From an uncultured Phycisphaerales bacterium (GTDB taxonomy: Bacteria; Planctomycetota; Phycisphaerae; Tepidisphaerales; Tepidisphaeraceae), in contig CAIQIQ010000019.1 in the NCBI GenBank assembly GCA_903871935.1, positions 1 through 64,000 on the forward strand: a stretch of DNA of 64,000 nucleotides, read 5' to 3'. Below are positions 15,486-58,456 of the stretch, in pieces. The first letter of the stretch is position 1. The number at the start of each line of letters is the position of its first letter. The position numbers were made by a program, and so were the translations under genes. The notes below the pieces were generated by a model, which was given only the letters and a program-made list of their open reading frames with translations, was not told the DNA's origin and did not search any database.

Positions 15486-16556
15486 ATGCAGGCCGCGTTG
15501 GAGTACAAACCGAATTTCCCTGAGGCCGTGGAGCGCATGAAGCGGTTCTGGGATCTCGAGGAGCCCGGGGACCGCGTGCCGGCGGCGATCTATCTGCCGG
15601 AGCCGGAGGGCCGCAAGGCAGACGGCTCGTTCTACGGCAGGCTCGGCGATTACGTGGCGCACATGGAGGAATACTTCCGCCTCCGCGCTGACGTGCCGGA
15701 CGAATACTTTCCCACGGTCGTGCCGCAGTACGGGCACACGATGATCTCCGTGCTTCTGGGGTGCGAGGTGCGGCACGCGGCCGAGACGCTCTGGTCGATC
15801 CCCTGCATGACAGGGGAAGTGCCTGAGGCGGATCTGTCGCTCGACTGGGGCAACGAATGGGGCGCGCGTTTCCGCGAGGACTACGAGCGACTGCTCGAAA
15901 CCGCACGTGGGCGCTACGCGGTGGGGCAGTATGAGATCGAGGGCGTGTCGGACACCTACAGCGCTGTACGCAGCGCGGAGCGCATGTTCTACGATTTCGC
16001 CGACGAGCCGGAGAAGGCCCACCGGTTCACTTCCCGTATCGTGGACGCACTGGTTTCGTTCGGCCGATGGAACCAGCGGAATGTCTCGGACAGGCAGGAC
16101 CTGATGGGAGGCATGACCAGCGTATACCCGATCTGGATGCCGAGGGATTCCTGCGTGACGACGGAGGACCATTCGGTGATGTTCAGCCGGGAGTACTACT
16201 CCGAAACGATCCGTCGCCATGCGGAGCGGCTCACATCGTCGTTTGCATGCACGCTCATGGAGGTGCACGGCGAGGGCAACCACCAGATCCGGTCTTTCGC
16301 CGGGATGGCCGGCGTTGGCCTGCTCACGCTGGGCAATCCGCTTGGCATGGGCGCGGAGCACCGGGCCGACGTGCAGTCGCTGCTGGGGCGCAAGCGGCTG
16401 CGGTTCGGCGTGGAAGAGAACAAGATAGAAGAGGTCCTGGAATTCACGGGTATCCGGGGTGTGCTGCTATGCTTTGCGGCCGACTCAGTTGCGTCTGCAA
16501 ACAGGATACTGGGTAGGCTTGAAAAGGCCACGCAGCGGCTGAAACGCAGCACCTAG
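15486..16556 (+). CDS. URO-D/cobalamin-methyltransferase-like protein
   Basis: A 356-residue cytosolic protein with ATG at 15486 (CAGGAGCGCAC upstream). Overall layout is that of the URO-D/MtaA superfamily TIM barrel: an early VPAAIYLPEP segment, a central helix FYDFADEPEKAHRFTSRIVDALV and a late strand SSFACTLMEVHGEGNHQIRSFAGM in place of the usual Zn-binding H-x-C. Here H is present but the cysteine is replaced (HGEG), so it may not bind the MtaA-type zinc. True heme biosynthesis is unlikely because it clusters with sugar enzymes. The family is uncertain. Confidence 0.5.
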   Translation: MQAALEYKPNFPEAVERMKRFWDLEEPGDRVPAAIYLPEPEGRKADGSFYGRLGDYVAHMEEYFRLRADVPDEYFPTVVPQYGHTMISVLLGCEVRHAAETLWSIPCMTGEVPEADLSLDWGNEWGARFREDYERLLETARGRYAVGQYEIEGVSDTYSAVRSAERMFYDFADEPEKAHRFTSRIVDALVSFGRWNQRNVSDRQDLMGGMTSVYPIWMPRDSCVTTEDHSVMFSREYYSETIRRHAERLTSSFACTLMEVHGEGNHQIRSFAGMAGVGLLTLGNPLGMGAEHRADVQSLLGRKRLRFGVEENKIEEVLEFTGIRGVLLCFAADSVASANRILGRLEKATQRLKRST

Positions 16557-40325: not shown

Positions 40326-42299
40326 ATGAGAAAATCCTGGCAAGCATCATTGGCAGTGGCTGTGGCGGCGGCATTGATTGGGACGACAGGCTGTTCGTCC
40401 GCATCGGCTCAGGGCACCAGGCCCCCGCAGGTGAATCAGGCCGGCGTGGTCTGCAACGTCAAGGTTATGTCGGACAAGGTGAAGGATGTCTCCAGCATCG
40501 AGGCGTGGAAGAAGTCGTATATCAATGACAGCATGACGCCGCAGGAGAAAGCGATTGCCGTCTGGACTTCGATGGTGTCGCACCAGCATCAGGAATCACC
40601 TCCTGCGGAGTACCTGCAGTCCGGGGGGCTCGTGGTCGATCCTATCAAGATCATGAATGTCTATGGGTACTCCTTCTGCTCGGTGGCGGCATCGGAGATG
40701 TGCGAACTGGGCAAGGTGGCAGGCTTAAAGGCCCGCGGCCTGGGCATCAAGACGCACAACGTCATGGAGTTTGGCTGGGATAATTCCTGGCACATGTTCG
40801 ATGCATCACTGATCAATTATTTCCCCAAGCCCGATGGCACGATCGCATCCGCGGATGAGATCAGTGCGGAAGTCCGAGGTTGGCTGGAGCAGCACCCGGA
40901 GCTCAGGGGCGATGGCAAGAAGCTGACCGCGTTTCACTTTGCCGATGGCAAGACGGGGTGGAAGAAGGGGCCGGTCCTGTTGACCAACTGTCCCTGGTAT
41001 ACCCCGACGGGCTGGTGGCCGGCCAAGACGCACGGCTGGTACAGCACGATGCAGGAATACGACATCAAACCGTTTATCACGCAGGATACACCCTCGCTGA
41101 GCTATAGCGTCAACATTCAACTTCGCCAGGGCGAGAAACTGACGCGCAACTGGAGCAATAAGGGACTGCATATCAATATGGATCGGGACGATGCCCCGGG
41201 CTGCATCGGTCCCAATGCCGGGACGGAACTGCTGTTCCATACCGCCAAGTTTGGCAATCTCGCGCCGGGGCGCATTGGCAATGGCGTCTTGGAATACGAT
41301 GCCCTGAGCGACAAGGCTCTGCCGGCTACAGCGCTGACGTTTGAGAACCTCACGTTTACCGATGGCAAGCTTCGCGTTAAAGATGGCTCGCGCAGCGGCG
41401 TGCTGGTCGTTCGTATGCCCAGCAGCTATGTCTATCTGACGGGCGCGATGGACCTGACGGCCGCGGTGGGCAATGGCGGGAGCATCGTTGCATCCTTCAG
41501 CGATAACAATGGTCTGGATTGGAAAGAACTGTCCAACGTGACCGCGGCGGGGGCGCAGAAGATCGATCTGTCGAAAAAGGTCTTCCGCCGGTACGACTAT
41601 CGCATGAAGTTTGAACTCAAGGGCGCGGGCACGGGCCTGGATGCCCTGAGCTTCACGCACGATATCCAGCATTCGCAACGGCCGCTGCCGGCGCTGGCAC
41701 AGGGCGAGAACACGATCAGCTTCTCGACCGGTGAGCAGCTCAGCACCATGCGCGTGGAAGGTAGCATTGAGGACTTTGGCGCGAAGCAGCTTCGCTACAC
41801 CAGCTTCCACCCCCAGATGGTCGGCCTCAACGATCGGCTTGGCGGCACGGGTTCATTAACCTTCCCAGTCCAGACGCCAGGCGATCTCAAGAGCATCCGC
41901 GCCGGCTGCTTCTATCGAGGTCCGGCCGACAGCTACCAAGTGCAAGTTTCCTACGATGGCGGCAAAACGTTCAAGACCATCTCGACGACGCCGACTCTTT
42001 CGGGTGACAGTGCCAACAGCGTCAACCCAACCACAACGGACATCCCCTCCGGCACTAAGACCGCACTGGTCCGCTATGCCGTGAAGGGCGGTGCGGCATT
42101 GGATTCGTTCTGGATCGTATTGGACTACAAACCCGCGGCCGCCGGCTTCCGCCCGGTGAAGCTGACGTACGCCTGGGATGAGGATGGCAAGGAAAGGACC
42201 GATGTGCACATCGCCAAGACGCCGGAAGAAACCTACAAGATCACCTGCGCTGCCAAGCCGACAATGAAGAACATCGTCATGGAAGTGGCCGCGCAGTAA
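40326..42299 (+). CDS. Exported protein with transglutaminase-like domain
   Basis: A 657-residue protein; ATG 40326 has GGAG upstream. The N-terminal export signal includes AVAVAAALIGTTGCSS, with a cysteine but a weak lipobox (T at -3). Residues ~100-165 carry a transglutaminase-like triad: YGYSFCSVAASEM (C118), KTHNVMEF (H144) and DNSWHMFDAS (D159), as in microbial peptidase/amidase-like transglutaminases. The rest is beta-sandwich, with YVYLTGAMDLTAAVGNGGSIVASFSDNNG. Function may be peptide or glycopeptide processing outside the cell. It is 7 bp before the MttB-like gene. Confidence 0.7.
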   Translation: MRKSWQASLAVAVAAALIGTTGCSSASAQGTRPPQVNQAGVVCNVKVMSDKVKDVSSIEAWKKSYINDSMTPQEKAIAVWTSMVSHQHQESPPAEYLQSGGLVVDPIKIMNVYGYSFCSVAASEMCELGKVAGLKARGLGIKTHNVMEFGWDNSWHMFDASLINYFPKPDGTIASADEISAEVRGWLEQHPELRGDGKKLTAFHFADGKTGWKKGPVLLTNCPWYTPTGWWPAKTHGWYSTMQEYDIKPFITQDTPSLSYSVNIQLRQGEKLTRNWSNKGLHINMDRDDAPGCIGPNAGTELLFHTAKFGNLAPGRIGNGVLEYDALSDKALPATALTFENLTFTDGKLRVKDGSRSGVLVVRMPSSYVYLTGAMDLTAAVGNGGSIVASFSDNNGLDWKELSNVTAAGAQKIDLSKKVFRRYDYRMKFELKGAGTGLDALSFTHDIQHSQRPLPALAQGENTISFSTGEQLSTMRVEGSIEDFGAKQLRYTSFHPQMVGLNDRLGGTGSLTFPVQTPGDLKSIRAGCFYRGPADSYQVQVSYDGGKTFKTISTTPTLSGDSANSVNPTTTDIPSGTKTALVRYAVKGGAALDSFWIVLDYKPAAAGFRPVKLTYAWDEDGKERTDVHIAKTPEETYKITCAAKPTMKNIVMEVAAQ

Positions 42300-42306
42300 A
42301 GGATGT

Positions 42307-43689
42307 ATGAACACCGTATCCGCCGAGCGGATTCACGCGGCAGCGGTGTCGCTGCTGGAAGATCCCGGCATCCGCATCGAACACGAGGCGATCTACAGCT
42401 TGCTGCTCAAGCACGGTGCTCAAGCGGGCAACGATGCGCAGGTTGTGCGGTTGCCGCGGGAGATGGTACGGGAGTACGTCGGCCTGGCTCCCAAGCAGTT
42501 CGCGCTGACCAACCGGCGCGGCGAGCCGACAGTCCTGTCATCCCAAAGCAAGCCAATCTACTGGTCATGTCCGGGGATGAGCCTGTGGCGCGAGGGGAAG
42601 CACCGGCTGTTTCGTAGCGAGGATATGGCGGACGTGGCACGCCTGATGGAGCACCTCGACAACGTGCACGGGGTCTTCGGCATGGCCCTGGACGATGTCC
42701 CGCCGCCTGCGCGAGATATCGCCGGTCTGAACATCATCGCACAGAATTCCAGCAAGCACATTCGCGTCTTGTGCTTCTCGCCGGCCGGCGCCAAGATGAT
42801 GACCGAGATGCGCCCGGTAATCGGGAGCCATCCTTGGTTCAGCATCGGATTCACCGCGCATGGCCCCTTGCGCTGGACGCACCTGGCGCTGGAGATCTTC
42901 CGTCTGACCGCAGGGCACGGAATTCCCGCCAGCATCAACGGTGAGCCGATGGCTGGGGTGTCCGGGCCGGTTACATTGGCAGGGGCTGGCGCGGTGGGCA
43001 ATGCCGAAATCCTGGCCGGAATCGTCATCAACCAGCTCCTCGAGCCGGGCCGGCCGTGCCTCTACAACCTCGGTTTGGCGCACATCTTCGACATGCGAAC
43101 CGCCATCGCCTTGACCGGGGCGCCGGAGAACGCGCTGTTCGCCAAGATGGCGGCCGAGATGGGGCGCTTCTACGACCTGCCGAGCGCTTCCTGGGTTTCG
43201 ACCGAGTCCATGTGCCCCGACAGCCAGGCTGCGCTTGAAAAGATGATGGGATTCCAGACCCACGCCGCCGCGGGTGTCTCCTGCATCTGGGGAGTGGGGC
43301 AGTTGGAATCCGAAATCACGATCTCCCCAGCTCAGGCGGTGATCGACAACGAGATGATCTCCTTCACCCGCCGGTTCAATCGCGGCTATGAGGCAACCGA
43401 TGCATCATTGGCGCTCGACGTGACGCGTTCGGTGGGCATCGCTGGCTCGTTCCTCGACCACGATCACACGCTGGAGCACTTTCGCGAGGAGTTCTACCAG
43501 CCCGATCTGCTGTGGCGGCGCAGGCGGCCGGATTGGCAAGCGGGTGGGCGCAAGCGGCTGGATGAGCGGGCAGAGGAAGTGGCCACGGAACTCATGGCAC
43601 GCCCCGCGGACAACGCAATGAGCCAGGAGCAGGCGAAGACGCTGATGGAGATGACTGAAGAATTCACGCAGAGGATGGGTGAGAGCTGA
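42307..43689 (+). CDS. Trimethylamine methyltransferase (MttB) family protein
   Basis: A 460-residue cytosolic protein. It opens S-A-E-R-I-H-A-A-A-V-S-L-L-E-D-P-G-I-R-I, like MttB proteins, with SKPIYWSCPGMSLW, NGEPMAGVSGPVTLAGAGAVGNAEILAGIV and the conserved SWVSTESMCPDSQAALEKMMGF barrel segment. There is no internal TAG, so it is a non-pyrrolysine member; relatives demethylate glycine betaine, proline betaine or carnitine to a corrinoid protein. No corrinoid protein is nearby. It begins 7 bp after the transglutaminase-like stop, so it is co-transcribed with exported glycan genes, an odd pairing. Substrate unknown. Confidence 0.85.
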   Translation: MNTVSAERIHAAAVSLLEDPGIRIEHEAIYSLLLKHGAQAGNDAQVVRLPREMVREYVGLAPKQFALTNRRGEPTVLSSQSKPIYWSCPGMSLWREGKHRLFRSEDMADVARLMEHLDNVHGVFGMALDDVPPPARDIAGLNIIAQNSSKHIRVLCFSPAGAKMMTEMRPVIGSHPWFSIGFTAHGPLRWTHLALEIFRLTAGHGIPASINGEPMAGVSGPVTLAGAGAVGNAEILAGIVINQLLEPGRPCLYNLGLAHIFDMRTAIALTGAPENALFAKMAAEMGRFYDLPSASWVSTESMCPDSQAALEKMMGFQTHAAAGVSCIWGVGQLESEITISPAQAVIDNEMISFTRRFNRGYEATDASLALDVTRSVGIAGSFLDHDHTLEHFREEFYQPDLLWRRRRPDWQAGGRKRLDERAEEVATELMARPADNAMSQEQAKTLMEMTEEFTQRMGES

Positions 43690-43818
43690 AATGCCTCTCG
43701 CGGCTATGCGGCAGTTACTTCAACGGTGGATCATCCGGTTTGTACATCTTATGAGGCATCATCGGCCGCTTCATCGGCCACGGTTCGTCCCGGCATGTCG
43801 GGAGAAAGAGCACGCAAT

Positions 43819-46800
43819 ATGAGATCATCCTTCACAGCAATTACCGCGTTGGCGATCCTTCTCGTAGGCGCATGCGCCCTCGCGGCGGACAACAACCTCC
43901 TGACCAACGCCTCCTTCGAGCAATTCGACAAGGCGATCCTGGAGCAGAAGGGCGCCAACGCTCAGCCCTTTGCCGGCTGGATATACAAGGTCTGGGAAGG
44001 GCAGTGCGAACTCCGCGGCAGCCCCGTTGCCCATTCGGGCAAGATGTCAGCGCTGCTGGTAGGGGGCATGGCCCCCAAGCAGCGAATCTGGCAGCAGCAG
44101 GAACTTGAGCCCGGTCGCTATCGCATCACTGGTTACATTCGCGGCTTGGACCTTGGCAAAGGCAACTTCGGCGCCACAACCGAGTTCATGTTCAATGAGG
44201 CCTACCTCCCTCTGGGCAAAGAAGGAACCTTTGGCTGGTCCAAAGTCACCTTCGTTGGCGAAGTGAAGGAGAAGAAGAAAGTCCAGGGCCCGTCATTCGG
44301 TTCGTGGTCGCCGGGATTCTTCTGGGTTGATGATGTGACCATGGAAAAAGTGGGCAACGATGTGCCCTTGACAGAGAAGCCCATCGTCGACAAGGAAGAA
44401 GCACCCCTCACGCCGCCGGGCAAGCTCGATGGAACCGCCATTCGCTGCCCCGACTGCGGCAGCCGCAATATGCCCGCCTGGAAGACCTGCTACGCCTGCG
44501 GATGGGTCATGGGGGAGAAGAAGCCGGCCGCGGCCGCCTTCACCGGCCCGGTCATCAAGCCGATCACTTCCTTCGAAGGCGATAATCCCTTCAACCAGGG
44601 CGATGGCAGCGACAAGGCCACCATCGTTGAAGAACACGCCACCGACGGCAAAAAGGCCATGAAACTCGCCCAGGACTGGGCGGTCACCAAAGGCACCTTC
44701 AATTGGGCCGGCTACGACTATCTCAAGTTCGATGCGTACACAGACGCCAAAGATGCCCTGACCCTGGGAATCGAGTTCTCCGATACCGCGACCTTTGGCT
44801 ACTGGGATCGCGTGAATTACTCGACGATCGTCCCACCGGGTCCGAGCACGATCATCATCCCCCTCAAGCAACTCTTCAAGGGTGAACGATCGCGTCCCGG
44901 CGGTCCGCTGAACCTCTCCGAGATCGTGAAGTGGGGTCTTGTCTTCTATGCCAAGCCCTCCGCGCCGCTGTACGTTGACAACATTCGCCTTGAGCGCGAT
45001 CTGGAAGGTGGCAAGCAGAACTTCGATGGCCTGTTCGCCTTTGATTTCCAGGTGGACAGCTCGATGCCGCTGATGGACGGTTTCACGCCGATCTACCCAT
45101 CCAGTGAATACACCGAGATGAAGGGCTACGGCTTCAAGAATGCCAAAATCCAGCCCGGCAACAACTTCGCCAATAACATGATGCAGCCCGATCCGCTGTA
45201 CCAGGACTTCGTCAACATCAATAGCGGCGATTTTGTGATTGACGTTCCCAACGGAAAGTACCGTGTGATGGTGAATGTGAACCGCCCCTCGGGATTCTGG
45301 GGCGACCTGCAGCGATTCACCAGGCGGACGATCTCCGCCCAGGGCAAGCAGGTTGTCACCGAGACCGAGGATGATGCCTCCTTCAAGAAGAAGTTCTTCA
45401 AGAACTATGGCCCGGACGACCTGCCCTCCGACAACGTCTGGGAGCGGTACGTCAAGAACTACGGCGAGAAGGTTTTCGACGTCGATGTCACCGACGGGCA
45501 ACTGCGCATCGGCTTTGAAGGCGATGGCAACGCCTTGTCGGCGATGATCGTCTACCCTCTGGACAAGCTCGCCGAAGGCCAGAAGTTCGTGAAGTGGGTC
45601 GAGCGGCAACGCCAATTCCACTTCGACAACAATTCCAAACGTATGGTCCATCAGCCCACGGGCGATGCGCTGGCGCCCAGCGATGCTGACAAAAAGAATG
45701 GTTACGTGGCCTTCGCGCGCGAAGTCATGAAGCCGGTTTACTACAACGACACACCCTTCAAGAGTGAACTGGGCAGGCCCGTCGCCGCCGATGCTTTCGC
45801 GGGTGAATATGCTCCGATGGCCCTGGCACTGTGTCCGCTCCAGGATCTGGGCAAAGTGACGGTAAGCGCCGGCGACCTTACCTGTGCCGCTGGAACGATC
45901 CCTGCCAGCGCCATCGACGTGGGCTACGTCTCCTATCGCTTGGCGCGCGTCACCGGCGACGGCACGGTTTACTCGATCAATCCGCGTTACGTCATGCCGA
46001 CCAATACCGTCGAGATGCCCAAAGACACCGTGCGGCGCTTCTGGCTGACCGCCAGAGTTCCCGCCGATGCCAAACCCGGCCTCTACAAGGGCAAGCTCAC
46101 CATCAAGCCCGAAAAGGGACAGGCCAGCGAGATGCCCGTCGAGCTTCGCATCCGCACCGGCTCCCTGGACGCCCTGGACATCCAGGCCGGCCCCTGGGGA
46201 TATCAGGTTCCCTACGTGGATGACGTCAAGTGTCTCAAGAAGATCCGCGAGTATGGCTTTACGATGTTCTCAAGCCCGCAGGTAGTCGGCTACCAGGGAT
46301 TCAAGGATGGCAAACCCGTCCTCGATTTCACGGCCGCGGACAAGCTGATGGCCACCGCCAAGGAAATGGGCTTCCAGTCCGTCATGTTCTATGGCTCGCT
46401 GATCAACGGCATTAACCCCTATGAGCAGGATCAGGCCCAGATGGCGGCCGCCGGCTTCAAGAACTACAGCGAGTTTATCAAGGCGGTATACACCGACGTC
46501 CAGAAGCACGCCGATGAGAAGGCCTGGATCACCTATCACGTCAATCTGGGTGATGAACCCAGTGGCGATGGCGTCGCCAAGTCCGCCCTCAATGCCGAGG
46601 CGTACCACAAGGCTTTCCCCAAGGGTCCTCCGTTCTTCTCGGCCGCCACCAGCCTGGAAGACATCGCCAAGGATCCCGAGCATGTCCGCCTGATCAAGGC
46701 CCTCCCGATTTCCAATCTCAACGGCCACAACGAAGAGGTCGTGAAGATGCTTCACGATGTCGGCAACGAGTGGGCGTTCTACAACGGCGGCGGCCGCTGG

Positions 46801-47202
46801 ACCTTCGGCGATTACATGTTCAAAGCTGCCAAGCAGTTTGGCATGAAGTTCCGCATCGACTGGCACTGGAACGTGACCATGGGCGATCCCTACTACCCGC
46901 TGGACAGCCGTGAGGATGAGTACGGCTGGTGCAACAGCAGTCCGCAAGGCGAACTGGTCCCCGCGCTGGACTTTGAGCTGCGCCGCGAGGGCCTGGGCGA
47001 CTACCGCCGCCTGCTGACGCTCCAGCACCTGGCCAAAGACAAAGCCGGCACGCCGGCCGCCGCCGCAGCGCAGAAACTCATCGACGACCGCATGGCATCC
47101 TTCAAGCTCGGCCAGCGCGACCACGATCCGCTGCTGGGCATCGACGATTGGGAGCAGTTCCGCGCAAAGGTTAACGATGCCATCGATGCGCTGCGGAAAT
47201 AG
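43819..47202 (+). CDS. Exported GH123-like glycoside hydrolase with internal zinc ribbon
   Basis: A 1,127-residue protein; ATG 43819, earlier in-frame starts possible. A signal peptide (TALAILLVGACALAADN) is followed by a carbohydrate-binding-like module (~30-190), then an unusual four-cysteine segment CPDCGSRNMPAWKTCYACGW (C210, C213, C224, C227), a second binding module (~245-390), a beta-sandwich domain and the DUF4091/GH123-type half with GDEP (D912-E913), matching the Asp-Glu pair of GH123. Same architecture as 9085-12411 but with the zinc-ribbon insertion. Likely releases N-acetylated sugars from glycans; substrate unproven. Followed by another exported protein 19 bp later. Confidence 0.7.
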   Translation: MRSSFTAITALAILLVGACALAADNNLLTNASFEQFDKAILEQKGANAQPFAGWIYKVWEGQCELRGSPVAHSGKMSALLVGGMAPKQRIWQQQELEPGRYRITGYIRGLDLGKGNFGATTEFMFNEAYLPLGKEGTFGWSKVTFVGEVKEKKKVQGPSFGSWSPGFFWVDDVTMEKVGNDVPLTEKPIVDKEEAPLTPPGKLDGTAIRCPDCGSRNMPAWKTCYACGWVMGEKKPAAAAFTGPVIKPITSFEGDNPFNQGDGSDKATIVEEHATDGKKAMKLAQDWAVTKGTFNWAGYDYLKFDAYTDAKDALTLGIEFSDTATFGYWDRVNYSTIVPPGPSTIIIPLKQLFKGERSRPGGPLNLSEIVKWGLVFYAKPSAPLYVDNIRLERDLEGGKQNFDGLFAFDFQVDSSMPLMDGFTPIYPSSEYTEMKGYGFKNAKIQPGNNFANNMMQPDPLYQDFVNINSGDFVIDVPNGKYRVMVNVNRPSGFWGDLQRFTRRTISAQGKQVVTETEDDASFKKKFFKNYGPDDLPSDNVWERYVKNYGEKVFDVDVTDGQLRIGFEGDGNALSAMIVYPLDKLAEGQKFVKWVERQRQFHFDNNSKRMVHQPTGDALAPSDADKKNGYVAFAREVMKPVYYNDTPFKSELGRPVAADAFAGEYAPMALALCPLQDLGKVTVSAGDLTCAAGTIPASAIDVGYVSYRLARVTGDGTVYSINPRYVMPTNTVEMPKDTVRRFWLTARVPADAKPGLYKGKLTIKPEKGQASEMPVELRIRTGSLDALDIQAGPWGYQVPYVDDVKCLKKIREYGFTMFSSPQVVGYQGFKDGKPVLDFTAADKLMATAKEMGFQSVMFYGSLINGINPYEQDQAQMAAAGFKNYSEFIKAVYTDVQKHADEKAWITYHVNLGDEPSGDGVAKSALNAEAYHKAFPKGPPFFSAATSLEDIAKDPEHVRLIKALPISNLNGHNEEVVKMLHDVGNEWAFYNGGGRWTFGDYMFKAAKQFGMKFRIDWHWNVTMGDPYYPLDSREDEYGWCNSSPQGELVPALDFELRREGLGDYRRLLTLQHLAKDKAGTPAAAAAQKLIDDRMASFKLGQRDHDPLLGIDDWEQFRAKVNDAIDALRK

Positions 47203-47221
47203 CTTACATTGGGAGCTACAA

Positions 47222-48817
47222 ATGAAACGCTTCACACACTTCGTAGCATGTCTGCTGGTATTGGTGTTGGGTGGCGCGGCATCAGCGCAGGAGAAGATGC
47301 CGCAGCGCTGGAATTACGCCAGCGCCAATCTCAACAGCGATGCGGGATTAAAGACCTTCATGGACGTCATGCAGCAGTCCAAGGATGTCGGCTGCACCCA
47401 CATCCTCATGCCCGAGGGCGGGTGGTTGAAGCAGGCGGACAATCCAGCCTATCAGGCCCGGGTTGACCAGGTGCAGGCAAAGGCGACCGAACTGGGGCTC
47501 ACGATCGTTCCCTGCGTCTACAAGATCGGGTACTCCGGCGGTTATCTCGGCTTCGACAAGAATCTCGCCGCGGGCATGCCCGTCAAGGACATGGTATTTG
47601 CGGTTAAAGGCAAGACTGCCGTCGTCGATCCGGCCGGCGCGCTGGATGTATCAAATGTGAAAGAGGGCGCTGGCACACTCAAATGCCAGCCGTTCATGCA
47701 CTATCGCATTACCATCCTTACCAGCGAGCAGCCGTCCAGAGGTGAGGGAACGGTGCAGGTCACCAGCCAGCCCGGATCGCGTGTGCACACGCGCTCCAAT
47801 GCGCAAGTCAGCAAGCAGGGCGACAAGTGGCTGGTCACCACCACGTTCAACAGCCTTCAGGCCACCGACCTGCGCTTCTCATGCCGCGTCAAGGGCATTA
47901 CCGATCTGAAGATCGAGCCGGCCGGCACACTGCTGGTCGTCCGCCGTGCCATGTGTCCGCTGAAGGTGACCAATGAGGATGGCACTCTCACCTACGAAGA
48001 GGGCAAGGATTTCGTCAAAATCGAAGATCCCATGATCTCCGGCAAGATGGAGGGCGAATTCGAGGACCACAAGCCCGCCGACATCACCATCGCCGATGGC
48101 TCGCGCATCAAGGATGGCGACAAGATCAAGGTCTCCTTCTTCCACACCCAGAGGCTCGGCAGTGACCAGGATTGCATCTCCATGGATGATCCGGCCGTCT
48201 TCAAGATCATGGAGCGCGACATCGTCAACTGCCAGAAGGTGTGGAAGCCCGCCGGCGTCTTCATGAACTACGACGAGATCCGCCTGGGCGGCTGGGAAGT
48301 CCAGCCCGACGGCAAGCAACTCAAGCCCGGCGAATTGCTGGCCAATCATGTCAAGAAGGGGATCGAGATGATCCGCCAATATGCCCCCAACGCCAAGATC
48401 TACACGTGGTCGGACATGTTCACCCCCTTGCACAACGCCCGGCCGTTCTCCACCAAAGGCTATTACTACCTCGTGAATGGCAACTGGGATGGTGCATGGG
48501 AAGGGCTCCCCAAAGATGTCATCATCATGAACTGGTACTCGCCGACCGCCGAGGGGATAAAATTCTTCGCCGACCGTGGCAACCCGCAGGTCCTCTGCGG
48601 CTACTACGATGGCACCAGTACCGATGCCATGAAGAAGAACATCACCAACTGGATGAAGGTATCGCAAGGCCAACCGCAGATGCAGGGCTTCATGTACACC
48701 ACCTGGAGACGCAACTACAAGAATCTCAAGGAATACTTCCAACTGGTCGACACCTACGACCAGTGGGGCAAAGGCGCTCAAGCCGCCCCCGAAAAAGAGC
48801 CCGGCGTGGCCCAATAA
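47222..48817 (+). CDS. Exported TIM-barrel-type hypothetical protein (GH-like)
   Basis: A 531-residue protein, ATG 47222 with GGGAGCTACAA upstream. Signal peptide VACLLVLVLGGAASAQEK. The layout suggests a TIM barrel interrupted by a beta domain (~130-290): GCTHILMPEGGWLKQ, LGLTIVPCVYKIG, VFMNYDEIRLGG, NAKIYTWSDMF, VIIMNWYSP. The N-Y-D-E-I-R and W-S-D segments may hold acidic catalytic residues as in hexosaminidase-type glycosidases, but the family is not certain. It closes the transcription unit, before the terminator at 48847. Confidence 0.65.
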   Translation: MKRFTHFVACLLVLVLGGAASAQEKMPQRWNYASANLNSDAGLKTFMDVMQQSKDVGCTHILMPEGGWLKQADNPAYQARVDQVQAKATELGLTIVPCVYKIGYSGGYLGFDKNLAAGMPVKDMVFAVKGKTAVVDPAGALDVSNVKEGAGTLKCQPFMHYRITILTSEQPSRGEGTVQVTSQPGSRVHTRSNAQVSKQGDKWLVTTTFNSLQATDLRFSCRVKGITDLKIEPAGTLLVVRRAMCPLKVTNEDGTLTYEEGKDFVKIEDPMISGKMEGEFEDHKPADITIADGSRIKDGDKIKVSFFHTQRLGSDQDCISMDDPAVFKIMERDIVNCQKVWKPAGVFMNYDEIRLGGWEVQPDGKQLKPGELLANHVKKGIEMIRQYAPNAKIYTWSDMFTPLHNARPFSTKGYYYLVNGNWDGAWEGLPKDVIIMNWYSPTAEGIKFFADRGNPQVLCGYYDGTSTDAMKKNITNWMKVSQGQPQMQGFMYTTWRRNYKNLKEYFQLVDTYDQWGKGAQAAPEKEPGVAQ

Positions 48818-48846
48818 GGGAATCAGCCGAGCCTAAGTTGTCGATC

Positions 48847-48880
48847 AAAAGGCGCCCATCGCGAGATGGGCGCCTTTGCT
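48847..48880 (+). terminator. Rho-independent terminator
   Basis: AAAA then GGCGCCCATC-GCGA-GATGGGCGCC (10-bp perfect stem, tetraloop) followed by TTT. It ends the 40326-48817 unit. Confidence 0.9.
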
Positions 48881-48949
48881 CTTACCGCGTCGCATCCACC
48901 GTGAGCGTTCCTTGCGTCCTCCGCCCGCGCGGCTTAGCCTACCGCTGCC

Positions 48950-50041
48950 ATGATCAAACTCGAAGGCTTCAGGAATCCTCATACGCCCAACTGGCCCGGT
49001 CTGCTGGCGAATCTTGCCCGCAAGGGAACGCCCGATCGCGTCTATCACATGGAACTATTCCACGACCCCGAAGTGCAGGATGCGCTGTGCGAGCGGTTTG
49101 CCATCCGCCCCAAGCTCCCGCGCGATCACAAGTTCGCCGGCTACGAGCGCATGGCGCTGGTCAACCGCCTGGTCGGCTGGGACTACGTCTGCATCTGGCC
49201 GGGTGGGCTAGGCTTTGAGTTCCACAACGCCACGGTGGATGACGTTGGCGATCTGAAGCGCACTTCCGGCCGGACGTTCCGTGATGAGCACACCGGCCCG
49301 ATCTCCAGTTGGGAAGACTTCAAGAAATTCAAGTGGCCCGACCCCACCTCACCCGAGGTTACCGCCCCGTTTGAGTGGTGCAGCCAGCACATCCCTGAGG
49401 ATATGGCCCTGGTCGCCTTCACCGGCCACATCTGCGAGGAACTCTCCTGGCTCTTCGGCTTCGAGACCCTCTGCTTCCTGCTCTATGATCAGCCCGACCT
49501 CGTGCAGGCCGTGGCCGACAAACTCTTCGCCATGTACGACGTCGCGGTTGCCCGCATGCTCCAGTTCCCACGCGTCAAGATGGTCTGGGCCACCGATGAC
49601 ATGGGCTACCGGACCGGCACGCTGATCGGCCCGAAGGAAATGCGCCATTACGTGCTCAAGACGCACAAGCGACTGGCCGCTCTATCCCATGCTGCCGGCC
49701 GGCCGTACCTGCTGCACTCCTGCGGCAACCTGACCGACATCATTGATGACCTGATCGACGATGTGAAGATTGACGCCAAACACAGCTTCGAGGACACGAT
49801 CGAGGATGTCCGGCAGGCCAAGAATACCTACGGTCGCCGCATCGCCATGATCGGCGGCCTCGACGTCGATTTCCTCTGCCGCAGCGACGAACAGGCGATC
49901 CGCGGCCGTGTTCGGGATACCCTCGACAAATGCCTCCCCGGCGGCGGTTACTGCCTGGGAACCGGCAACAGCGTCGCCAACTACATCCCCTTGGACAATT
50001 ACCTGGCCATGGTCGATGAGGGCATGCTGTATGGCAGATGA
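48950..50041 (+). CDS. URO-D/MtaA-like zinc methyltransferase
   Basis: A 363-residue cytosolic TIM-barrel protein of the uroporphyrinogen decarboxylase superfamily. It contains LLHSCGNLTDIID, the H-x-C zinc ligands of MtaA/MtbA-type corrinoid:coenzyme M-like methyltransferases, and a downstream cysteine in GGYCLGTGNSVAN, completing the H-x-C...C set. FLLYDQPDLVQAVADKLF and the preceding HICEELSWLFGF are typical. It is therefore more likely a methyl-transfer enzyme than heme-pathway HemE. Separate from the MttB unit by a terminator but only 5 kb away, so it could be the second methyltransferase for that MttB (inference). Confidence 0.8.
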   Translation: MIKLEGFRNPHTPNWPGLLANLARKGTPDRVYHMELFHDPEVQDALCERFAIRPKLPRDHKFAGYERMALVNRLVGWDYVCIWPGGLGFEFHNATVDDVGDLKRTSGRTFRDEHTGPISSWEDFKKFKWPDPTSPEVTAPFEWCSQHIPEDMALVAFTGHICEELSWLFGFETLCFLLYDQPDLVQAVADKLFAMYDVAVARMLQFPRVKMVWATDDMGYRTGTLIGPKEMRHYVLKTHKRLAALSHAAGRPYLLHSCGNLTDIIDDLIDDVKIDAKHSFEDTIEDVRQAKNTYGRRIAMIGGLDVDFLCRSDEQAIRGRVRDTLDKCLPGGGYCLGTGNSVANYIPLDNYLAMVDEGMLYGR

Positions 50042-50087
50042 TCTTTTGCACCGTTGGCGCTTCTGGCCCAGGGCCTAGTGTCCGAAC

Positions 50088-50495
50088 ATGAATCACTCTG
50101 AAAAAGTCCTCGTGGTACTCTTGCGGCTTTCGGCGGTTCTGCTGCTGGTTGCCTTGATTCCTGCCGTCATGCCGTTCGCATGGATGAAGGACATCCACCG
50201 GCTTCTGGGAATGGGCGAACTTCCCGAAGGGCCGATCATGAGCTATCTCACCCGTTCGTTGTCCGCCATGTATGCGTTGCACGGAGCTCTGGTTTTCTTT
50301 GTTTCTCTGGACGTTCGCCGTTACCTGCCCCTGGTGAAGTTCATCGCCATCCTGGGGATCATGTTCGGCGTCGGGATGCTGGTTCTAGACCTCGCAGTCG
50401 CGATGCCACCGTTATGGATTGCTGGTGAAGGTCCGTTCATCATCGTCCTCGGTGGCGTCATGCTCCGGCTGACGGCGCGAGTCCAACCCGCGTAG
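50088..50495 (+). CDS. Small four-helix membrane protein
   Basis: A 135-residue protein with about four transmembrane helices (VLVVLLRLSAVLLLVALIP, ALHGALVFFVS, FIAILGIMFGVGMLVLDLA, FIIVLGGVMLRL). No catalytic motif seen. Conserved-looking hypothetical, probably of planctomycete distribution. It follows the MtaA-like gene by 46 bp. No clear ribosome-binding site. Confidence 0.6.
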   Translation: MNHSEKVLVVLLRLSAVLLLVALIPAVMPFAWMKDIHRLLGMGELPEGPIMSYLTRSLSAMYALHGALVFFVSLDVRRYLPLVKFIAILGIMFGVGMLVLDLAVAMPPLWIAGEGPFIIVLGGVMLRLTARVQPA

Positions 50496-56926: not shown

Positions 56927-58456
56927 ATGATGGCTAAGAGTGCTGTGCAAGCGGATAAGGGACATGTGGCGCATTCAAAAGCGGCCGATTCGCAGGAAGG
57001 TCTGAAGGGGAAGTTCAGCCGTCCGATCAATATTACATTCCTGGGCGCCGGGTCGGGCTTCTGCCCGACGCTGTGCAAGGATGTGCTGCTGATTCCCAGC
57101 GCCGATCGCGGCGAATTCCGCCTGGTGGATATCGACAAGGACCGCCTGAGCAAAGTCTACAAGGTCATCCAGAAATTGATCAAGGAATCCGGCCGAGAAG
57201 ATGGCTGGATAGTAAAGGCGACAACGAACCGTCGCGAAGTACTCAAGGGCACCGACTACGCGGTTTGCTGCGTGGAAGTATCGGGCATGGCGTGCGTGGC
57301 GTTTGATAATGACATTCCGCTGAAGTACGGGGTGGATCAGTGCATCGGCGACACGGTTGGGCCAGGCGGGCTCTTCAAGGGACTGCGGACGATCCCGGTG
57401 TTCCTGGACATCCTTCGCGATATGCGCGAGCTGTGCCCGCAGGCGATCATGCTCAACTACACGAATCCGATGAGCATGATGGTCTGATCGGCCGGCCGGG
57501 CTGTGCCGGAGATTCCCGTGGTCGGACTGTGCCACAGCGTCCAGGGCACCAGCCACCTGCTGGCCAGGTATGCGGGTGTGCCGTACGAAGAGATGGAGTG
57601 GGATTGCGCCGGGATTAATCACCTGGCATGGTTTACCAAGGCCATGCACAAGGGCGAGGATCTTTATCAGAAGGTGCTGTACAAGAAGTTTGCCGAGGAA
57701 GTGGCCGAGGGGATCAAGGAGGCGGAGGCGGGGGTAGGGATCTATAAGACGAGCGAGAAGTGGACCTGGTCACAAGGAAAGCAGGGCAAGTACAAGTACA
57801 CGGATCTGGTCCGCAAGGACATGTGCGTGCACTTCGGTGCGTACATTACCGAGAGTTCGGGACATCTGTCGGAGTACCTGCCTTACTATCGCAAGAGCGA
57901 AGCGGGCAGGAAGCTGCTGCGTCTGGGGTATGATGGCGGCGCCCGGTTCTATGCGTCGAATTGGCCGGACTGGCGCAAGGCGGCCGATGATGAGCGCGTG
58001 CGCCTGGCCAATGGCGAGGAACAGGTGAAGCTTGAGCGGTCCTGGGAGTATGGCTCGATGATCATCGAAGCCCGCGAGAAAGATTGCCCGGTACGCATCC
58101 ACGGAAACGTGATGAACTACGGCAATACCGGGCGGAGCACGGCCGGCGAGGCGAGCCGGCTGATTACGAACCTGCCGGGCGACGGGGTGGTGGAAGTGGC
58201 GTGCATGGTTGATCGCAATGGCGTGCAGCCGACCCGCTATGGCGCGCTGCCTCCGCAGATGGCGCATATCTGTGGCATGAACATGGCGTGCTATGACCTG
58301 GCAGCGAAGGCTGCGGTGGAGAAGAGCATTGAGGCGGCAGCGCATGCCCTGATGCTCGATCCGCTGTGCATGGCTGTTTGCACCCCGGGCGAGATCAAGG
58401 CGATGACGATGGAGTTGTTCAAGGCGGAGAAGAAGTACCTGCCGGGGTTCAAATAG
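56927..58456 (+). pseudogene. GH4 family glycosidase (alpha-glucosidase/galactosidase) with in-frame TGA
   Basis: The N-terminal part (56927-57487) carries ITFLGAGSGFCP, GDTVGPGGLFKGLRT and NYTNPMSMM; the frame then meets TGA at 57485-57487 and continues without shift through PVVGLCHSVQGTSH, CAGINHLAWF and the C-terminal half to 58456. In GH4 enzymes the position corresponds to a conserved Trp (NPMAM-x-T/V-W), so TGG to TGA is the likely change. GH4 enzymes use NAD+ and a metal (Cys/His of GLCHSVQG) for redox-assisted hydrolysis. As written the gene would make a truncated protein; readthrough, assembly error or decay are alternatives. A terminator follows at 58485. Confidence 0.85.

Follow-up and report, generated by a model that had tools for sequence, protein, structure and literature searches.

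MttB- and URO-D-superfamily genes among exported proteins in a Tepidisphaeraceae genome: two members of a possible genome-wide corrinoid demethylation capacity

The DNA considered here is a 64,000-nucleotide stretch (hereafter the window) of contig CAIQIQ010000019.1 from an uncultured Phycisphaerales bacterium of the family Tepidisphaeraceae (GCA_903871935.1; 6.32 Mb in 172 contigs, completeness 91.7%, contamination 2.95%). A run of six open reading frames (ORFs) on the + strand (40326-50495) encodes an exported protein, a protein of the MttB superfamily of corrinoid methyltransferases, two further exported proteins, a protein of the URO-D superfamily and a small membrane protein (Table 1). 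This arrangement raises the question of whether the MttB and URO-D proteins serve a single pathway for a methylated component that the exported proteins release from a glycan, as proposed in a preliminary description of the sequence, or belong to a larger system. The locus is best read as holding two members of a genome-wide capacity for corrinoid-dependent demethylation, placed among exported and probably glycan-degrading genes. Labels beginning with G, C and L are our own for genomes, contigs and loci; the genome studied is G000 and the window lies on C19.

Two methyltransferase-superfamily proteins and a corrinoid partner

By its sequence, the MttB protein is a clear non-pyrrolysine member of its superfamily. 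PF06253 matches it at 227.6 bits (cut-off 25) over profile positions 38-493 of 500, and its PDB matches are 7xcl/7xcm, 9yce (glycine betaine methyltransferase) and 2qne. The score against TIGR02369, the pyrrolysine trimethylamine methyltransferase, is 295.3 bits, under the equivalog cut-off of 525. Pyrrolysine was rejected for this protein, as Ser298 occupies the pyrrolysine place of 7xcl and there is no internal stop. In-frame stops do occur in some MttB homologues (TAG in G058:C104 and G039:C24, TGA in G039:C11); when the neighbourhoods of loci with such stops were read again, one open frame covered the MttB match.

The URO-D protein matches PF01208 at 68.9 bits (cut-off 23.9; profile positions 98-341 of 346) and MtaA at E=1.4e-4 (PDB 4ay7). 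H256 and C258 align with zinc ligands of MtaA and N340 occupies the place of the third; we take these three to be the MtaA zinc ligand positions, in agreement with PMC10418091. The site had been described as H-x-C...C, which does not hold: the third ligand cysteine of MtaA is replaced by Asn, and the other cysteine, C335, lies five residues upstream. The protein scores 48.0 bits against the MtaA/CmuA family TIGR01463, far under the cut-off of 235.4. An MtaA-like zinc thiol methyltransferase was rejected on these two grounds. According to PMC10418091, HCC (the residues at the three ligand positions) is the site of the S-methyltransferases of the superfamily, and O-methyltransferases have one or both cysteines replaced. 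The Asn at the third position agrees with that rule for UroD-type O-demethylases, and it favours a substrate with an O-methyl group over a thiol. A corrinoid gene in the same cluster, another mark of UroD-type O-demethylases, is absent here.

The preliminary description correctly placed the corrinoid protein outside the window: a genome-wide search with PF02607 found none on C19. It recovered two proteins, one of MetH size on C128 and a stand-alone corrinoid protein of 208 aa that carries both B12 domains (C61:58231-58857). The best NCBIfam match of the latter is MtgC (191.7 bits, under the cut-off of 370); its best PDB match is 1y80, followed by the trimethylamine corrinoid protein 7xcn_M. 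Divergent from the corrinoid gene is a gene for the activase RACo (C61:58951-60786). A second RACo is encoded on C78, together with CODH/ACS genes that score over their NCBIfam cut-offs. The complete lack of a corrinoid partner in the genome, which had been named as grounds for abandoning the proposed methyl transfer, was thus not observed, and an MttB without any such partner was rejected. Corrinoid-dependent demethylation is plausible because the stand-alone corrinoid protein, the activase and CODH/ACS genes are all present; the MtaA type assigned to the URO-D protein is not supported, the third ligand being Asn. One CODH/ACS gene on C78 (L043, 8478-11987) encodes a single chain of 1169 aa that joins alpha/beta (residues 10-725) and delta (859-1165).

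The URO-D expansion and corrinoid activation

PF01208 has 66 matches in the genome, two of which, on C32, share one frame, giving 65 URO-D genes. Aligned with MtaA, their metal sites are HCH (16), DDH (8), HDH (6), HCN (6), HCQ (3), HCD (3), HCC (2) and others (21). A second alignment left the site unchanged for 60 of the 65, and the window protein is HCN. A further URO-D-like protein in the window (15486-16556) was matched only by a profile of the 65 URO-Ds themselves and has no Pfam match. First-look counts of URO-Ds, not all of which were scored, reach 74 in G040, 63 in G081 and 58 in G086. The window URO-D belongs to an expansion that extends through the class and in which the metal sites are altered. 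No account of this expansion was found among the matches listed from open-licence full-text literature, judged by titles and the starts of abstracts.

We searched the same 101 genomes for URO-D, RACo, NRDD, PFOR and the corrinoid protein, scoring at most 18 URO-D matches per genome; counts are given as both / at least two URO-Ds only / other only / neither. The presence of at least two URO-Ds is associated with RACo (47/2/7/45; RACo in 47/49 versus 7/52 genomes), with P=1e-18, a value that, like the other co-occurrence P values, takes no account of phylogeny and belongs to the best of the markers tried. The association is found in PFOR-positive (over cut-off) genomes (39/1/4/16), in PFOR-negative genomes (8/1/3/29), in NRDD-negative genomes (36/1/6/45) and in the family of the window (7/0/3/16). 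NRDD, found in 13/101 genomes, was of no use here as an anaerobic marker, and PFOR was therefore used as well. The stand-alone corrinoid protein, defined as an open frame of <400 aa and including the incomplete frames of G007 and G052, gives 44/5/7/45 (44/49 versus 7/52); two copies occur in 4 of the 51 corrinoid-positive genomes. Among the 20 genomes with an MttB match, RACo is present in 19 and the corrinoid protein in 18.

Gene linkage points the same way. An HCH URO-D adjoins the RACo and corrinoid genes in G018, and in G005 the corrinoid gene is followed after ~1.5 kb by an HDH URO-D, placing relatives of both types within 2 kb of corrinoid/RACo genes. Clusters of URO-D, corrinoid and RACo genes also occur in G036 and G044, where the site is HCC; these recall the mlp clusters described in PMC10418091. 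In G007, G020 and G021 (L176, L177, L178) such clusters are compact, the site is H-x-D...G (HDG), and each genome, all of the same family, has a single URO-D match.

We propose that the MttB and URO-D paralogues are substrate-specific demethylases that work on one corrinoid protein and feed folate and Wood-Ljungdahl metabolism, an explanation we regard as evenly poised between right and wrong. MttB would demethylate an imported, betaine-like quaternary ammonium compound in the cytoplasm and pass the methyl group to the MtgC-like protein on C61, the only stand-alone corrinoid protein of the genome, which the adjoining RACo would keep active. From there the methyl group would enter folate and Wood-Ljungdahl metabolism (CODH/ACS genes on C78). 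The genes with their domains, the substituted metal site, the gene counts and the association with RACo and the corrinoid gene are observations; the acceptor step, like the activities, the direction of transfer and the substrates, is inferred. The ~65 URO-D paralogues would most likely be further substrate-specific methyltransferases acting on the same corrinoid protein, and the exported hydrolases may supply substrate, as their location suggests.

A more specific form of this proposal, which we put forward tentatively, is a hub-and-spoke system for anaerobic demethylation. One corrinoid protein and one activase would serve ~65 URO-D-fold methyltransferases for methyl ethers, probably of glycans, and four MttB proteins for betaines. 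It is possible, to the same limited degree, that the metal sites (His-Cys-His, Asp-Asp-His, His-Asp-His, His-Cys-Asn) diversified for different methyl ethers, in a pattern that is repeated throughout the class and goes together with corrinoid activation. If the expanded URO-Ds are corrinoid-dependent demethylases, many of the searched planctomycetes carry up to dozens of them under the label 'uroporphyrinogen decarboxylase', and the metal sites would predict the kind of atom attacked. To our knowledge, the anaerobic demethylation of O-methylated polysaccharides is little characterised. The literature matches listed for it dealt, by title and abstract, with aromatic or phenolic compounds.

Besides the neglect of phylogeny and the choice of the best marker, several observations weigh against demethylation through a shared corrinoid protein. 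The corrinoid gene is on another contig, far from the window. Sites outside the seven commonest patterns make up 21 of the 65, and some of these proteins may have no bound metal or may not carry out this reaction. No dominant family emerged among the operonic neighbours of the URO-D genes in a Pfam tally that covered 67 of 74 (without four on C78 and three in the window) and shows 25 of 79 families. Neither RACo nor a stand-alone corrinoid protein accompanies the 7 URO-Ds of G072 (98% complete), whose single site read is HCC, or the URO-Ds of G076 (74% complete). In G004, G042 and G049, which also have URO-Ds, a stand-alone corrinoid protein was not found, and G057 has RACo and the corrinoid protein with no URO-D match. 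In the window genome, the corrinoid gene is flanked on the side away from RACo by an unexplained 951-aa fusion of DUF1638 and hydantoinase (L042, G000:C61, 5257-8112); a similar gene is beside the corrinoid gene of G041 (L186, 5112-7178).

Some of these points would suit a different explanation, which we consider rather unlikely: that the expanded URO-Ds are metal-dependent lyases, decarboxylases or isomerases that act in the breakdown of sugars or acids, that their co-occurrence with corrinoid activation reflects a shared anaerobic lifestyle, and that MttB is an unrelated betaine demethylase. The ratio of 65 URO-D genes to one corrinoid protein fits this explanation, as do the 8/65 D-x-D...H sites, which lack a thiolate, the URO-D-rich genomes without RACo (G072, G076), and a small number of URO-D neighbours of the Gfo/Idh/MocA, amidohydrolase and xylose-isomerase-like kinds. 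However, a shared lifestyle does not readily account for an association with RACo that persists with and without PFOR, particularly as PFOR adds nothing among RACo-positive genomes (P=0.14), and in both G018 and G005 a URO-D of an expanded type is found next to the corrinoid and RACo genes.

Origin and neighbourhoods of MttB

The genome has four MttB genes, each with a position of its own in a tree of 40 rows. The window MttB groups as sister with a sequence from Verrucomicrobia (support 99/97; 68% identity), in a clade that spans several phyla and also includes Lentisphaerae, Desulfobacterales and unnamed bacteria. The relatives searched include 25 other genomes of the family, and none of these gave an MttB match at E<=1e-10; such matches are present in 19 of 75 genomes from other families of the class. 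Its absence from those 25 genomes and its sister relationship to a Verrucomicrobia sequence indicate that the gene was probably gained horizontally.

Neighbourhoods were read at 20 MttB loci of relatives, many of them cut off by contig ends, which represent 22/40 matches in 14/19 other genomes, and at 21 homologue loci in named records of a genome collection, three of them relatives already covered and two partial. Gene calls based on codon usage were faulty in L157, L168, L170 and L172, and gene presence was therefore scored on six-frame ORFs.

Genes at some of these loci bear on the MttB substrate. MttB homologues follow branched-chain-type ABC importer genes in L205, L206, L213 and L215 (components checked with Pfam in L205, L213 and L215, by eye in L206). 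A corrinoid gene is close downstream of MttB in L213 and L215, and a dihydroorotate-dehydrogenase-like ferredoxin protein is encoded nearby in L205, L206 and L215. In G033 the upstream neighbour of MttB is a Glu/Leu/Phe/Val dehydrogenase. Since homologues are found beside amino-acid-type importers, two of them also with a corrinoid gene, an amino-acid-like betaine is favoured as substrate, in line with the betaine-like compound suggested earlier. Another MttB gene of this genome (L041, G000:C11, 7818-9278) is within ~10 kb of genes that resemble, by eye, those for glycine-cleavage T, H and P; these would suit catabolism of a betaine to glycine.

Near MttB, a transglutaminase (TG)-like gene was found in none of the relatives' 20 loci and none of the 21 homologue loci. 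The pairing of TG-like and MttB genes as a module conserved in relatives was rejected on this basis, and the neighbourhood as a whole is largely not conserved, which had been named as a second ground for giving up the proposal. Within the window genome, TG-like genes are near three of the four MttB genes (at 7 bp; at ~4.4 kb with intervening genes; at ~3 kb on opposite strands), an arrangement with a chance probability of ~8e-5, calculated post hoc. In L161 a GH123-like gene lies at most 10 kb from an MttB that belongs to another clade.

These observations bear on the original proposal, in which a methylated component set free from a glycan by the exported proteins is handled by the MttB and URO-D proteins of the run as one dedicated pathway. 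The same-strand run with its short gaps, the recurrence of TG-like genes near MttB in this genome and the GH123-like gene of L161 are consistent with such a pathway. Against it stand the lack of TG-like genes at the loci of relatives and homologues, the probable horizontal gain of MttB, the amino-acid-type importers that accompany its homologues and the N-methyl groups on which known MttB enzymes act (PMC8604678). We regard a dedicated glycan pathway as improbable.

URO-D genes adjoin MttB at 4/20 relatives' loci, on the same strand in L156, L165 and L168 and divergently in L171. The density of URO-D genes predicts ~0.3 flanking genes (P ~4e-4, post hoc, with several loci from one genome). The three sites read among these four are HDD (L156), HCH (L165) and HCC (L171). 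The proximity of MttB and URO-D seen in the window is repeated at a minority of loci, without the TG-like gene, and MttB itself was probably acquired independently of the history of the family. Least probable of all is a classical pair, in which MttB would load a methyl group onto the corrinoid protein and an MtaA/MtbA-like second methyltransferase, the URO-D protein, would pass it to a thiol or folate: it draws on this excess of neighbours, on L156 holding the closest class homologue among the MttB matches and on the HCC site of L171, but the window URO-D lacks the third Cys and falls far short of TIGR01463, and the sites of URO-Ds beside MttB vary.

Exported proteins, comparison with known systems and layout of the locus

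The exported genes of the run are probably glycan-degrading. The larger of the two between MttB and the URO-D gene encodes a protein that matches GH123 N-terminal families over their cut-offs (PF22680, 43.6 bits versus 27; PF19543, 28.5 versus 22); GH123_cat reaches 19.0 bits, under its cut-off of 23.1, and PDB 5l7v is matched at E=0.002. The next protein matches the GH20 catalytic domain of PDB 9fyl (E=4.7e-6) and has no Pfam match at E<=1e-3, nor at E<=5. The first exported protein has 17 matches in 13 genes of the genome, and ten genes, itself included, are at >=44% identity. Its earlier designation as transglutaminase-like is weak. Transglut_core (PF01841) has no match in the protein itself at E<=5; three of nine paralogues match it, at E 1.7e-4 to 0.03, none above the cut-off.

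Like the non-pyrrolysine quaternary amine methyltransferases MtgB, MtpB, MtcB and MtyB, the window MttB has a full-length family match and no pyrrolysine, and its genome encodes a corrinoid protein and RACo. Unlike them, it belongs to its own multi-phylum clade and has no adjacent corrinoid gene; this comparison was made with MtgB, via PDB 9yce and 2qne. The URO-D protein is likened to the UroD-superfamily O-demethylases OdmB and VdmB by family and by the rule in PMC10418091, as the Cys pair is not kept. It differs in that this genome has Asn, His or Asp at the third position and ~65 paralogues, mostly away from the corrinoid gene. Family membership and the HCC clusters of G036 and G044 link the URO-Ds to MtaA/CmuA and the type 1 mlp clusters (Kountz and Balskus, PMC10418091), whereas the window protein is HCN and far under the MtaA/CmuA cut-offs. 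Many MttB paralogues are reported for Eubacterium limosum and, numbering 82, for 'Ca. Formimonas warabiya' in PMC8604678 and PMC9768040. The window genome likewise has many paralogous, here predicted, corrinoid methyltransferases, but the expanded family is URO-D (65 genes), with four MttB genes and one stand-alone corrinoid protein.

The coordinates given earlier for the first five ORFs hold, all five being on the + strand, as does the 7-bp gap between the first exported ORF and MttB. The starts at 40326, 43822 and 47222 were chosen inside longer, mechanically called ORFs. Leaders were read by eye, and none was seen in the MttB or URO-D protein.

Table 1. Features of the same-strand run in the window
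Feature	Position	Strand	Basis
Exported protein, 13-gene family in this genome, 'transglutaminase-like' by weak paralogue matches	40326..42299	+	Leader by eye
MttB-superfamily corrinoid methyltransferase, non-pyrrolysine, Ser298 at pyrrolysine position	42307..43689	+	PF06253, PDB matches
Exported GH123-like protein	43822..47202	+	Pfam, PDB 5l7v, leader by eye
Exported GH20-like protein	47222..48817	+	PDB 9fyl, leader by eye
URO-D-superfamily protein, H-x-C...N site, one of 65 URO-D genes in genome	48950..50041	+	PF01208, 4ay7
Codons of H256-S-C258, aligned with two MtaA zinc ligands	49715..49723	+	From residue numbers
Codon of N340, place of MtaA third ligand Cys	49967..49969	+	From residue number
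Small membrane protein, last of the run	50088..50495	+	ORF list

The small membrane protein has no Pfam or NCBIfam match. Elsewhere in the window, a GH4-like gene (by eye; 56927-58456) consists of two ORFs that differ in frame (56927-57487 and 57503-58456), owing either to disruption of the gene or to misassembly.

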